A stretch of 64,000 bases of DNA from Hyphomonadaceae bacterium (GTDB lineage: Bacteria > Pseudomonadota > Alphaproteobacteria > Caulobacterales > Hyphomonadaceae), in contig JAOATF010000032.1 of NCBI GenBank assembly GCA_030158285.1, positions 1 to 64,000 on the forward strand, read 5' to 3'. Each line of letters opens with the position of its first letter. Positions within the stretch are counted from its first letter, which is position 1. The position numbers and the translations under genes were made by a program. The notes under the pieces were generated by a model that saw only the letters and a program-made list of their open reading frames with translations, searched no databases and was not told the origin of the DNA. Positions 22,556 through 30,915 of this stretch are shown here, piece by piece.

Positions 22556-23095
22556 GTGTTGCTCAAGCCTGTATGCACAGCAGCCGCAATGACGCTGACC
22601 GTCCTTGCCGCCCCGGCCGCGGCAGCTCAAGTCCCCGCGTACAACGCGGCCGCGTTCACGAAGACCTATGCGCAGGTCGTGGATATCTTTGGCGGTCAGG
22701 AGAAGTTCCAGGCCGCCTATGAGGAAGCCCGCGCCGAGCAGGCCCGCATGGAAGGCGCCCTGCAGCTCAGCCTCAACCTCGAAGCTCGTCTCCGCGCCAA
22801 CAACAACGCCAAGGCGGCTGACATCTATCTCAACGCCGCCAATGGCCTGCGCCCCGTCGTCGAGACCTTGCGCGCCACCTTCGCGAAGTTCGACGCGCTC
22901 GACACCCCGCTCGACGAGGCGCGCGCGAAAGCTGCTCATGACCGGATCGCCGCCGACCTCGCAGCTGTTCTGCAACGTCCGATGACCGAACAGTATGAAT
23001 TCAGCAAGACGCACAAGCTTACCGACGAACCGCTCAATGCGATCCAGACCGCAGCAGGAACCCTGATCGCTGTGGCGGAGAAAAAGCCGACCTAG
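22556..23095 (+). CDS. Hypothetical exported protein (179 aa)
   Basis: The GTG start at 22556 follows a strong GAGGGGGG site. Residues 1-24 form a signal peptide (AAPAAAAQ). The mature protein is almost entirely predicted alpha-helical, Ala/Glu/Arg-rich, with no cysteines and no recognised domain. It is divergent from the MHS transporter and lies about 106 bases upstream of the TIR gene on the same strand, though a functional link is not evident. Confidence 0.68.
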   Translation: MLLKPVCTAAAMTLTVLAAPAAAAQVPAYNAAAFTKTYAQVVDIFGGQEKFQAAYEEARAEQARMEGALQLSLNLEARLRANNNAKAADIYLNAANGLRPVVETLRATFAKFDALDTPLDEARAKAAHDRIAADLAAVLQRPMTEQYEFSKTHKLTDEPLNAIQTAAGTLIAVAEKKPT

Positions 23096-23201
23096 CTCCG
23101 CTTCGCAGTGAGCCACAGTCTCCGCCCCCCGACTGCGGCAGACTTTCGCGCGCGGTGACGTCGTGTAGGGTGCGGCGGGGCTTTGAGCCCGGGAGACACG
23201 C

Positions 23202-24581
23202 TTGGTCGGGCCGGACGGGCATTATCGCGCTTTCATCAGCTATTCCCAGCAGGACAAGGCCTGGGGAAAGCGCATCCATACCTGGCTTGAAACCTATCGC
23301 ATTCCCGATGGCGTGGCGCCGGGCGAGACGACCAATCACCGCCTTGGCCGGTTCTTCCGCGACGAGGAGGACATGGCGGCGGCTTCCGACATCGGCGTGA
23401 TCGTGCGGCGGGCGATCGAGAATGCGGAAAGCCTGATCGTCATCTGCTCGCCGCGCTCGGCGCAGTCGAAATGGGTGAACGCGGAAATCCATCACTACCG
23501 GCGCACCGGCCGCGCGCGAAAAGTGTTCGCGATCATCATCGATGGCGTGCCGAACTCGGGCGACCCGGCGACCGAGTGCTTCCCGCCGGCCCTGCGCGCC
23601 GCAGGCGATCCGGATGATCCCGACGCCCTGCCGATCGAACCGCTGGGTCTCGACGTGCGCAAGGATGGGCCTGAGCGGGCCTGCGCACGGCTGGCGGCGG
23701 GCCTCATTGGCGTCGACTTCGACGATCTCTGGCAGCGCGACCGTCGCCGCGCCGAAGCGCGCCAGCGCATGATCATCGGCGGCTTAGCCGCGATCAGCAC
23801 GGTGTTCGCCGCGCTGGCCGCGACAGCGATCTGGCTCGGCGCTCAGTCAGAGCGTAACGCCACCGAGGCGCGGGCGCGCAGCGCGGAAGCGGAGGCCGCC
23901 CGCGCTGTGCTGCAGCGCGAATATCTCTCCATGCTCGGCGAGACAGTCATCGAGGATGTGTTGATACCGAACGAGGTTCCGGGGGACATCGCAACCGACA
24001 ACCCGGAAATCTGGTTCCCGTTGATGATCACCGAGCAGGTTCAGCTGGCAGCGGCGCGGGATTACAAGGCCGGACGTATTCTCGCCGTGGCGCATGACCG
24101 CGTGATCGATGGCGCCATCAGCGTGCGCAGCGAGGGGTTTCTCCAGCGCACGGTGCGCTGGCTGGCCAATTCGAAGGCGGATGCAGCGATCCGGATCGCC
24201 AGCGGGCATTGCGAATGGCTGCCGACACGGAGCGATGACTGGGCGCTGCCGCAGGACCTCACTGACTGGGGCTACGCCGTCAGCGAAACTGCGGGGAAGA
24301 TCGACGACACGCAGCTTAAAGGCGCCGACGTGCTGATCATAGGCAACGCCTGGGGTAATTTCGAGCAATCCGAGATCGACGCCATCGAGCGCTTTGTCGC
24401 GCGTGGCGGCGGCCTGCTGGCGGCGGGCCTCGGCTGGTCGTGGAAGGACTCAAGCGCGAAGCCCGGCTTTGCGTGCGAGGGCCGCAATCAGGGACAGGAC
24501 GTCAACGACATGTCGACCTACCCGATGAACCGCCTCGGCAAGCTCTTCGGCATGCAATGGACGGACGCATTTCAAGAGTGA
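23202..24581 (+). CDS. TIR-domain membrane protein with C-terminal TCAF/GATase1-like domain
   Basis: Three parts are visible. Residues 8-175 are a TIR domain: RAFISYSQQDKAW, the FRDEEDM loop, and SKWVNAEI with Glu95 at the position of the NADase glutamate in enzymatic TIRs. Residues 190-213 form one transmembrane helix, followed by a short coiled coil to about 243. Residues 285-455 resemble the glutamine-amidotransferase-like domain found in TCAF and M60-associated proteins: an AVAH strand, EGFLQRTVRWL, GADVLIIGNAWGNFEQSEID, RFVARGGGLLAAG and YPMNRLGKLFG. The start is TTG 23202 with GGGAGA upstream. TIR-membrane fusions often carry WD40 or TPR tails, so this tail is unusual. A role in immunity or regulated cell death is inference. 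Confidence 0.82.
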   Translation: MVGPDGHYRAFISYSQQDKAWGKRIHTWLETYRIPDGVAPGETTNHRLGRFFRDEEDMAAASDIGVIVRRAIENAESLIVICSPRSAQSKWVNAEIHHYRRTGRARKVFAIIIDGVPNSGDPATECFPPALRAAGDPDDPDALPIEPLGLDVRKDGPERACARLAAGLIGVDFDDLWQRDRRRAEARQRMIIGGLAAISTVFAALAATAIWLGAQSERNATEARARSAEAEAARAVLQREYLSMLGETVIEDVLIPNEVPGDIATDNPEIWFPLMITEQVQLAAARDYKAGRILAVAHDRVIDGAISVRSEGFLQRTVRWLANSKADAAIRIASGHCEWLPTRSDDWALPQDLTDWGYAVSETAGKIDDTQLKGADVLIIGNAWGNFEQSEIDAIERFVARGGGLLAAGLGWSWKDSSAKPGFACEGRNQGQDVNDMSTYPMNRLGKLFGMQWTDAFQE

Positions 24582-28108: not shown

Positions 28109-28675
28109 CTATCGCGGCGCGCGCTTGGCGAGAATGCGCTGCAGCGTACGGCGGTGCATGTTCAGCCGGCGGGCGGTTTCCGAGACGTTGTGGTTGCACA
28201 GCTCGTAGACGCGCTGGATGTGTTCCCAGCGCACCCGGTCTGCAGACATGGGGTTTTCCGGCGGTTCCGGCCGGTCCGAGCGGCCGGTCAGCAGCGCGTT
28301 GACCACATCGTCAATGTCCGCAGGCTTGGGCAGGTAATCGATCGCGCCAGCCTTCACGGCGGCCACGGCCGTCGAAATCGCGCCATAGCCCGTCAGGATC
28401 ACGGCATGGGTGTCTTCGCGGGTGCGATGCAGCGATTCCACCACGTCGAGGCCCGAGCCGTCTTCAAGGCGCAGGTCCACCACGGCAAACGCCGGAGCGT
28501 GCTTTTTCAGGGCTTCCTTGGCTTCGGCGACGGAGCCGACGGAGGTCACATCGAAGCCGCGCTGCGCCAGCGCACGCGCCATGCGCGCGCGGAACGGCGC
28601 GTCATCGTCGAGCACAAGCAGACTCTTGTCTTCGAGGGCGGCGACCCGCGGGTCATTATCAACCTGCTCGTCCAA
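28109..28675 (-). CDS. regA: Redox response regulator RegA/ActR/PrrA
   Basis: Two-component response regulator that controls respiration, redox balance and carbon metabolism in alphaproteobacteria. The receiver domain has acidic Asp residues in LLVLDDDAPF (about 19-28) and phospho-acceptor Asp67 in VVDLRLEDGSG. A short linker is followed by a Fis-type helix-turn-helix (NVSETARRLNMHRRTLQRILAKR), nearly invariant in this family. The best start is TTG 28675, which has GGGAGAGG a few bases upstream and gives 188 aa. An ATG at 28747 would add 24 atypical residues. It lies downstream of regB on the same strand. Confidence 0.93.
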   Translation of the reverse strand: MDEQVDNDPRVAALEDKSLLVLDDDAPFRARMARALAQRGFDVTSVGSVAEAKEALKKHAPAFAVVDLRLEDGSGLDVVESLHRTREDTHAVILTGYGAISTAVAAVKAGAIDYLPKPADIDDVVNALLTGRSDRPEPPENPMSADRVRWEHIQRVYELCNHNVSETARRLNMHRRTLQRILAKRAPR

Positions 28676-28820
28676 AAGCCTCTCCCGGGAAAGCGTATTG
28701 CTAGCGGCAATATAAAGGGTGCGACCGAATAGACCAGCCGTCAGCATAATGTCCAGCTTCGAAAGGACTTTTGCGAGACTTTCGCGGCTGCACCTCTCGT
28801 CTGATCCTGACGTCTGGGCC

Positions 28821-30239
28821 TTAGCCCTCGATCCAGCCCGCCGGCGCCTCGATGGCGGTGCGGGGCCAGGCGATCCTCACCACCGCGCCCTTGGCCGGAA
28901 ACTGGCGGTTATAAGGGGTTACGCGCGCGCCCGTGCGCTCCAGCAGCGTGCAGGCGATGAAGAAGCCGAGGCCCATGCCGCCGCCGCGCTGCTCGATCCG
29001 GCGCTCGCTGAAATAGGGCTCCCCCAGTTTCGCCAGCACGGAGGGCGCAAATCCCGGCCCGTCATCCGTGATGTAGATCCGCACTTCGTCTGCCGACCAG
29101 CGCGCGTTCACCGACACTTCCTTGGCCGCAAAGCTCGTCGCGTTCTCGACGAAGGCGCCGAGCGCGTGGATGATCTCGGGCTTGCGCACGACTTCCGGCG
29201 CGCGGTCGTCCAGCCCGCCCCCGCCCGCCAGCGGCGAGCACGAACACTGTACATGGATGCCGGTGCCCCGGTGAGGTTCGGCTGCCTCCTCGATCAGCGA
29301 CGGCAGCGTTGCGCGCGCCATCGCGGCGTCCGTCATGTGACGGCGCTGCGAGATCTGTTTCAGGATCGTCCGGCAGCGTTCGGACTGTTCGATGATCAGC
29401 TCGACATCCTCGCGCGCGGGATGACCCGGCTTCACGCTGCGGCCAGCCTCTTTCGCGGCGAGGTGGATGGTCGCCAGCGGCGTGCCCAGCTCGTGCGCCG
29501 TCGCCGCCGCCAGCGCGCCCAGCGCCGACAGCTGCTGCTCGCGGGCCAGCACGGCCTGGACCGCATCCAGCGCCGAGACCAGCCGCGCCTCGTCGCGCGC
29601 CGTGCGCCACGCCGAGACCGTGAAGAAGATCAGCCCTATCGCGACGGCGGCCAACTGCCCCGCCCGGTAGAGCGGCGGAATGTCGAAGGCCTGGTCCTCG
29701 CGCCATGGCAGGTCGAGCCCCCACAGCCACATGCCGCCGCAGCACACCAGCGCCAGCAGCGCCAGCGCGCCCGAATAGGCCGGCAGGAGGCGCGAGGCGC
29801 CCACCGTCACCGGCGCCAGGATCATCAGGAGGAACGGGTTCTGCAGCCCGCCGGTCAGCCCGATCAGCACCGACAGCTGCACCGTATCGAACGCCAGCTG
29901 CCCTGCCGTTTCCGCCGGGGACGACAGGTGCTGGGAGGGGAACACCGCCATCAGCGCCACGTTGAGCCAGGCCGAGGCTCCCACCGCAGCAAGGCACGCC
30001 GCCAGCGGCAGCTCGAAGCCCAGCATGTAGTTGACGAACAGCACGGCAAGCGCCTGCCCTGCGATGGCCATCCAGCGCAGCGACACCAGCGTGCGCAGGC
30101 GCGTCCGCCCGAAGGCCGCCCCCACGCTGCGCAAGGCCTCGGCGCGCGCCGGCTCGAGCGCCGACGCAACAGGCAGGCTGGCCGGTGGTCTGGCTTGTGT
30201 GGCAGTCGTCTGAGTGATTGGCGCTTCAACCATGGTCAT
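28821..30239 (-). CDS. regB: Redox sensor histidine kinase RegB/ActS/PrrB
   Basis: Membrane kinase that reads the quinone pool and controls RegA. Six hydrophobic helices occupy residues 50-210. The quinone-responsive heptapeptide GGLQNPF is intact at 130-136. The H-box ATAHELGTPLATI has phospho-accepting His249, and the redox-active cysteine equivalent is present as Cys289 in SERCRTIL. The HATPase domain shows DDGPGFAP and GGGMGLGFFIA. The length of 472 aa is normal. It is divergent from senC, as in Rhodobacter-type reg loci, while regA follows downstream instead of beside senC. Confidence 0.95.
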   Translation of the reverse strand: MTMVEAPITQTTATQARPPASLPVASALEPARAEALRSVGAAFGRTRLRTLVSLRWMAIAGQALAVLFVNYMLGFELPLAACLAAVGASAWLNVALMAVFPSQHLSSPAETAGQLAFDTVQLSVLIGLTGGLQNPFLLMILAPVTVGASRLLPAYSGALALLALVCCGGMWLWGLDLPWREDQAFDIPPLYRAGQLAAVAIGLIFFTVSAWRTARDEARLVSALDAVQAVLAREQQLSALGALAAATAHELGTPLATIHLAAKEAGRSVKPGHPAREDVELIIEQSERCRTILKQISQRRHMTDAAMARATLPSLIEEAAEPHRGTGIHVQCSCSPLAGGGGLDDRAPEVVRKPEIIHALGAFVENATSFAAKEVSVNARWSADEVRIYITDDGPGFAPSVLAKLGEPYFSERRIEQRGGGMGLGFFIACTLLERTGARVTPYNRQFPAKGAVVRIAWPRTAIEAPAGWIEG

Positions 30240-30312: not shown

Positions 30313-30915
30313 ATGCGTAACGCCCTTCTCGCCGCTATCAGCTGTTTCGCCGTTCTCGCCGGGTGTTCCCCCGCCGGCACCAGTGCGCAGGTCGCCGGCG
30401 CGAGTCCCACGTGCACCAATCGCTCATCCGACAAGATCGGTGGCCCGTTCAAGCTGACCGGCGCCGATGGCCGCCAGGTCACAGAGCAGGACTTCAAGGG
30501 CCGCAAGGCGCTGGTCTTCTTCGGCTACACCTACTGCCCCGACATCTGCCCGATCACGCTGTTCAATGTCGGCAAGGCGCTGCAGGACCTGCCGACGGAC
30601 AAGCGCCCGGCCACCGTCTTCATCTCGGTCGACCCTGAGCGCGACACGCCGGAAAAACTCGCCCAGTACATCCGCTCGAACGGCTTCCCGGAAGACATCA
30701 CCGGCCTCACCGGCACGGTCGCAGAGCTGGAAACCGTCAGCCAGGAATTCGCGACGACGTTCGGCAAGGGCGATGAAGACGACAGCGCCGGCGGCTATCT
30801 GGTGAGCCACTCCTCCATCCTCTACCTGATGGACGAGACCTGGAAGCTGCAGACCTTCTTCATGCAGGACGACAGCCCCGCCGCCATCGCCGCGTGCCTC
30901 AAGACCCTGAGCTAG
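30313..30915 (+). CDS. senC: SCO1/SenC/PrrC copper chaperone lipoprotein
   Basis: Membrane-anchored thioredoxin-fold copper protein that helps load CuA of cytochrome c oxidase and modulates the Reg/Prr system. A signal peptide with lipobox (VLAGC, Cys18) anchors it to the membrane facing the periplasm. Copper ligands are Cys75 and Cys79 in CPDIC, with His166 in VSHSS. ISVDPERDTPEKL is a family signature. The length of 200 aa is normal. It is divergent from regB with about 73 bases between them. Confidence 0.95.
   Translation: MRNALLAAISCFAVLAGCSPAGTSAQVAGASPTCTNRSSDKIGGPFKLTGADGRQVTEQDFKGRKALVFFGYTYCPDICPITLFNVGKALQDLPTDKRPATVFISVDPERDTPEKLAQYIRSNGFPEDITGLTGTVAELETVSQEFATTFGKGDEDDSAGGYLVSHSSILYLMDETWKLQTFFMQDDSPAAIAACLKTLS

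Follow-up and report, generated by a model that had tools for sequence, protein, structure and literature searches.

Does the gene at positions 23202-24581 of the window (the whole analysed stretch of 64,000 nucleotides) encode a TIR effector anchored in the membrane, with a sensor on the opposite side? The complete reading, in which this freshwater alphaproteobacterium possesses a single-pass membrane TIR receptor-like effector with a plug-in periplasmic GATase1-like sensor, stands in our estimate slightly above an even chance. Its parts differ in strength and are considered in turn.

Gene and domain organization

The open reading frame 23202-24581 (+), coding for 459 aa from a TTG start codon, is a real gene. 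Its GC content by codon position (0.67/0.49/0.81) has the bias of genuine genes and is the same as that of the surrounding genes, and a sister species (G003) carries a full-length homologue, 73% identical, with the same layout. GGGAG is located 6 nt upstream of the TTG codon; in the G003 gene (L031) the TTG is kept and is preceded by GGGGA. The gene comprises the following features:

23191..23195 (+), GGGAG, probable ribosome-binding site, read directly from the sequence, with the GGGGA equivalent in L031
23202..24581 (+), gene for the TIR-TM-coiled coil-GATase1-like protein
23232..23549 (+), TIR domain, residues 11-116 (Pfam TIR_2, 1.2e-11; ThsB_TIR, 1.3e-7)
23484..23486 (+), codon of Glu95, the predicted NADase catalytic residue (conservation, L6 alignment)
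23769..23825 (+), transmembrane helix, residues ~190-208, Arg-rich on its N-side (hydropathy, charge counts)
23853..23933 (+), coiled-coil-like helix, residues ~218-244 (AlphaFold model of low confidence)
24009..24572 (+), GATase1-like C-terminal domain, residues ~270-457, ~190 aa, predicted to be periplasmic (profile comparison, fold search)
24189..24428 (+), core of this domain, residues ~330-409, consisting of a strand with GHCEW, a strand with IGNAWG, a helix and the GGGLLAAG strand (HMM match to a DUF4350-type family)

TIR domain

Both TIR_2 (45.6 bits against a cut-off of 28) and ThsB_TIR exceed the curated Pfam cut-offs. In an alignment of 20 proteins carrying the TIR-TM module, the FISYS, FRD, CSP and SxWVxxE motifs are conserved and Glu95 is invariant (20/20). 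The best PDB sequence match of the TIR part is the plant protein L6, a weak one (E 0.04), in which SKWCLMEL aligns with SKWVNAEI, thus placing Glu95 on the Glu that we take, as established knowledge, to be the catalytic residue of L6. The first-pass annotation had assigned Glu95 to the catalytic position of NAD-cleaving TIR domains, and the alignment confirms this, with the surroundings of the residue also kept. The protein combines the two features of TIR NADases, a TIR domain recognized by curated profiles and a Glu following the SxW motif, and its TIR domain is predicted to cleave NAD+ via Glu95, a Glu by itself being no proof of catalysis.

Thoeris ThsB, TIR-SAVED, SARM1 and the plant TIR NADases share the TIR fold and the catalytic Glu with this protein; they are, however, soluble or differently triggered, whereas the window protein is membrane-anchored and has an outside domain. 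No ThsA gene, which would indicate a Thoeris system, is present beside the TIR gene, the neighbors being genes for an MFS transporter and a small secreted-looking protein, and rlmN.

Membrane topology

A single hydrophobic helix, found by hydropathy after RDRRRAEARQR, corresponds to the one transmembrane helix noted earlier. The flank on its N-side contains on average 5.6 Lys and Arg residues vs. 2.2 on the C-side, with N exceeding C in 19 of the 20 family members. Under the positive-inside rule this excess puts the TIR domain on the inner side of the membrane and the C-terminus on the outer side, so that hydropathy and charge together predict a cytoplasmic TIR domain and a periplasmic C-terminal domain. 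The short coiled coil, likewise proposed before, is seen as a helix in the AlphaFold model of low confidence.

TIR-TM family and its exchangeable C-termini

The partners of the TIR-TM module comprise WD40 domains (identified by Pfam in L038 and L039 and, in other members, visually from their repeats), FGE-sulfatase (L042) and TPR (L052), consistent with the earlier statement that membrane-linked TIR proteins usually end in WD40, TPR or sulfatase-modifying domains. These relatives, such as G000:C116 (984 aa) and G013:C9 (514 aa), resemble the window protein in the TIR domain (up to 78% identical), the catalytic Glu, the one transmembrane helix at the same place and the variability of what follows it, but their C-termini are WD40 propellers, TPR or FGE-sulfatase domains and not GATase1-like. 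The occurrence of such different C-termini on TIR-TM paralogues marks the C-terminus as the exchangeable part. The GATase1-like C-terminus is a new and rare element, absent from the surveyed relatives, within a modular TIR layout that is otherwise known. The module itself was found in only three of 190 genomes of the class in a wider survey. No description of a TIR paired with a GATase1-like domain was found in the open-licence literature, which is not proof of novelty.

Three C-termini of TIR-TM proteins have no Pfam match (L047:3904-5703 of G032, L050:3925-6345 of G033 and L051:3114-4697 of G013) and could represent further new sensor types; in appearance one is alpha-toroid-like, one has YD/RHS-like repeats and one is mostly alpha-helical. 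The WD40 forms L038:3921-6872 and L041:2874-5876 share a conserved C-terminal tail of ~60 aa (DACNxLLGAHG...RDVCEG), the two Cys of which would be compatible with a disulfide in the periplasm.

A comparable modularity is known from prokaryotic metacaspases, in which a transmembrane helix is combined with a receptor, WD40 or FGE-sulfatase part (PMC3501461); like the TIR-TM proteins they have a cytoplasmic effector and exchangeable sensors, sometimes across the membrane, but the effector is a caspase-like peptidase. In diversity-generating systems, C-type-lectin sensors occur with TIR effectors (PMC10907252).

Fold of the C-terminal domain

No Pfam family matches the C-terminal domain above its cut-off. 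Below threshold, DUF4350 (best E 1.7e-4), IFT52_GIFT (3.7e-3) and ABC_transp_aux (6.5e-3) are found in all three homologues, ThuA in two of the three and IMPa_N_2 in one. DUF4350 (PF14258) reaches 13.0 bits in the window protein (cut-off 30.4), and the IMPa_N_2 (PF18650) match 11.9 bits (cut-off 25; E 0.14, residues 52-195 of the 237-aa segment). We take all five to be GATase1-type families. Weak genome matches led to secreted-looking DUF4350-type proteins (L024, L034, L035), two of which (L034 and L035) are among the marginal matches from the phylum sample. Comparison of the C-terminal domain with five DUF4350-type proteins by hhalign gave 97.1% and E 5.3e-11. An HMM of these five proteins scored the window domain at 28.1 bits and its homologues in G003 and G009 at 12.2 and 15.4 bits, respectively, against a maximum of 1.9 bits in 300 shuffles (mean -4.0, sd 1.4).

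Structure prediction points in the same direction, with models of low confidence built from alignments of three sequences only (mean pLDDT 60 and pTM 0.70 for the domain, 50 and 0.39 for the whole protein). In a Foldseek search against the PDB the domain model matched all IMPa entries first (5.4e-5 to 1.7e-4, probability 1.00), followed by thymidine kinases and KaiC. The full-length model again retrieved IMPa first (8.8e-4 to 2.3e-3) and then a GMP synthase amidotransferase subunit (subunit A). The TM-score to IMPa is 0.45, and the matches are to the IMPa entries, not assigned to the N-domain. Among viral proteins Foldseek found no match below 1e-3.

The low confidence of the models and the presence of thymidine kinases and KaiC next in the list would also be expected if the domain were unrelated to GATase1 folds and merely shared generic Rossmann-like alpha/beta layers with its matches. 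We regard this as very unlikely, as the highly significant profile comparison does not depend on the models and several separate Pfam families of one superfamily match the same residues. On these grounds a class I glutamine-amidotransferase-like (GATase1-like) fold, as the first-pass annotation had proposed, is supported by hhalign, by sub-threshold Pfam matches and by the low-confidence models, both of which have IMPa as the best match. Neither of the two refuting outcomes named in the first-pass annotation thus occurred: the C-terminal region resembles GATase1-like folds, and the TIR domain has retained Glu95 in its conserved setting.

The narrower label of a TCAF/M60-associated domain is only partly borne out. 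The motifs that had suggested it, GADVLIIGNAWG, RFVARGGGLLAAG and YPMNRLGKLFG, are present and largely conserved in the three available homologues, and presumably resemble those of the TRPM8 channel-associated factors (TCAF), which differ in being eukaryotic and in having an M60-like domain. IMPa is an M60-like O-glycopeptidase, so the fold search, together with the weak IMPa_N_2 match, favors the M60-associated lead; at the sequence level, however, the profile-profile comparison with the IMPa_N_2 domains of other M60-like proteins (L059, L060 and relatives) was not significant. The N-terminal domain of IMPa (PDB 5kdv, 7jtv) also has apparently the same order of elements, but there it stands in front of the metallopeptidase part of secreted proteins, while the window protein contains no peptidase and its sequence similarity to that domain is below significance.

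Relative to DUF4350, ABC_transp_aux, IFT52 GIFT and ThuA, the core (residues 330-409) aligns significantly with DUF4350-type proteins; the differences are the scores below the Pfam cut-offs and the position of one element, GRVVVLGEAGM...FLLNVLHWL, which follows the core in those families, a similar element preceding it here. This element after the core was observed in L024, L034, L035, L092 and L093. When rotated, the C-terminal domain sequence aligns end to end with the DUF4350 type (218 vs. 185 columns); the score of the N-terminal element alone against DUF4350 was reached by 66 of 1000 shuffles and is not significant. A circular permutation relative to DUF4350 is thus possible from the sequence comparison.

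Enzyme or binding domain

The presumed nucleophile elbow, placed by sequence and predicted strands in GGGLLAAGLGW, contains neither Cys nor Ser. An active class I glutamine amidotransferase would have a Cys at this point, where AAGLGWSW is found, and its absence makes a working amidotransferase unlikely. Nine Trp residues and two Cys, Cys337 (in SGHCEW) and Cys425, are identical in all three homologues. Since enzymes do exist in this fold family, the two Cys could be taken to indicate an active enzyme of the class I GATase or PfpI kind, either an amidotransferase or a peptidase, with the TIR domain serving as scaffold or regulator. This appears quite unlikely given the elbow after the GGGLLAAG strand, and Cys337 and Cys425 would equally fit a periplasmic disulfide. 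Furthermore, none of the best-matching families (DUF4350, GIFT and ABC_transp_aux) is known to consist of amidotransferases. The C-terminal domain is most likely a binding domain, apparently enzyme-dead.

Proposed mode of action

The protein would act as a single-pass receptor-like protein of the inner membrane, its cytoplasmic TIR domain being the predicted NAD+-cleaving enzyme. On the periplasmic side, connected to the TIR domain by the transmembrane helix and the coiled coil, there would be a GATase1-like domain of a DUF4350 or IMPa_N_2 type, apparently lacking the amidotransferase nucleophile. This domain may bind a ligand in the envelope, such as a peptide, a glycan or a component of an incoming phage or toxin, whereupon the protein would cluster and its TIR domains align. 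The aligned domains could then cleave NAD+, so that the cell is killed or stalled, or a signal nucleotide is made. A role in defence or cell death is an inference, as the first-pass annotation stated, and so is one in stress response. TIR NADases require oligomerization, and accessory domains often serve as their sensors (PMC13174449).

Most bacterial TIR effectors with characterized triggers sense them inside the cell. The exchangeable domains of the TIR-TM family, to which the GATase1-like domain adds a sensor type compared with the relatives surveyed, are apparently located outside the inner membrane, as in animal Toll-like receptors. The boldest extension of the proposal would be a bacterial counterpart of the Toll-like receptor topology. 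In it, an enzyme-dead GATase1-like domain of the type that accompanies mucin-type peptidases would sense a periplasmic glycan, peptide or phage component and drive a cytoplasmic TIR NADase across the membrane; this specific version we consider unlikely. The protein is a compact single-gene case with a small, well-defined outer domain, and therefore suited to a direct test of transmembrane signaling by bacterial TIR proteins.

Distribution, genomic context and selection

The C-terminal domain is present in four of the 15 genomes of the genus (G000, G003, G009 and G006), with the G009 and G006 copies located at contig ends and represented by their C-terminal 253 aa and last 45 aa, respectively. 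Among the related species of the genus, two have been deposited as Hyphomonadaceae MAGs. No close relatives were found in 289 genomes of the class, 349 of the phylum, plasmids, phages and viral contigs, and a search with conserved peptides in 84,980 species genomes did not find the domain beyond these four species of one genus. In all four, rlmN adjoins the gene, indicating a fixed slot; elsewhere, among the genomes examined, the MFS gene or other genes follow rlmN and the domain is missing.

Both parts of the protein are under purifying selection, and the C-terminal domain evolves faster than the TIR domain (dN/dS ~0.33 and ~0.08 in the comparison with G003; Nei-Gojobori, single pairs). A faster evolving and still constrained domain fits the expectation for a sensor.

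Among ten neighboring genes PADLOC found no convincing match, one methyltransferase matching mad2. The genes of known function nearby are housekeeping genes, unlike those typical of defence islands. Such a location is mild evidence against a mobile defence system and compatible with a physiological role. The protein could accordingly be a TIR adaptor or structural protein of envelope physiology or signaling, without NADase activity, whose C-terminal domain binds peptidoglycan or a periplasmic partner. The fixed housekeeping slot beside rlmN in four sister species, purifying selection and the lack of defence genes among the scanned neighbors agree with this explanation; the catalytic Glu and its SxWVxxE context are, however, strictly kept even in diverged members of the family. 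We consider it a serious alternative, although clearly short of an even chance, and retain the receptor-like effector as the preferred reading.

The 179-aa open reading frame 22556-23095 (+), located between the MFS and TIR genes, has a signal-peptide-like start and no Pfam match. An operon of this gene with the TIR gene was considered and rejected, as it has no match on the G003 contig covering the slot and occurs in G011 (69% identical) without a TIR gene. Elsewhere in the window, 28109-30239 (-) encodes a response regulator and histidine kinase pair adjoining a SCO1/SenC gene (30313-30915), an arrangement reminiscent of the RegBA/PrrBA redox system.
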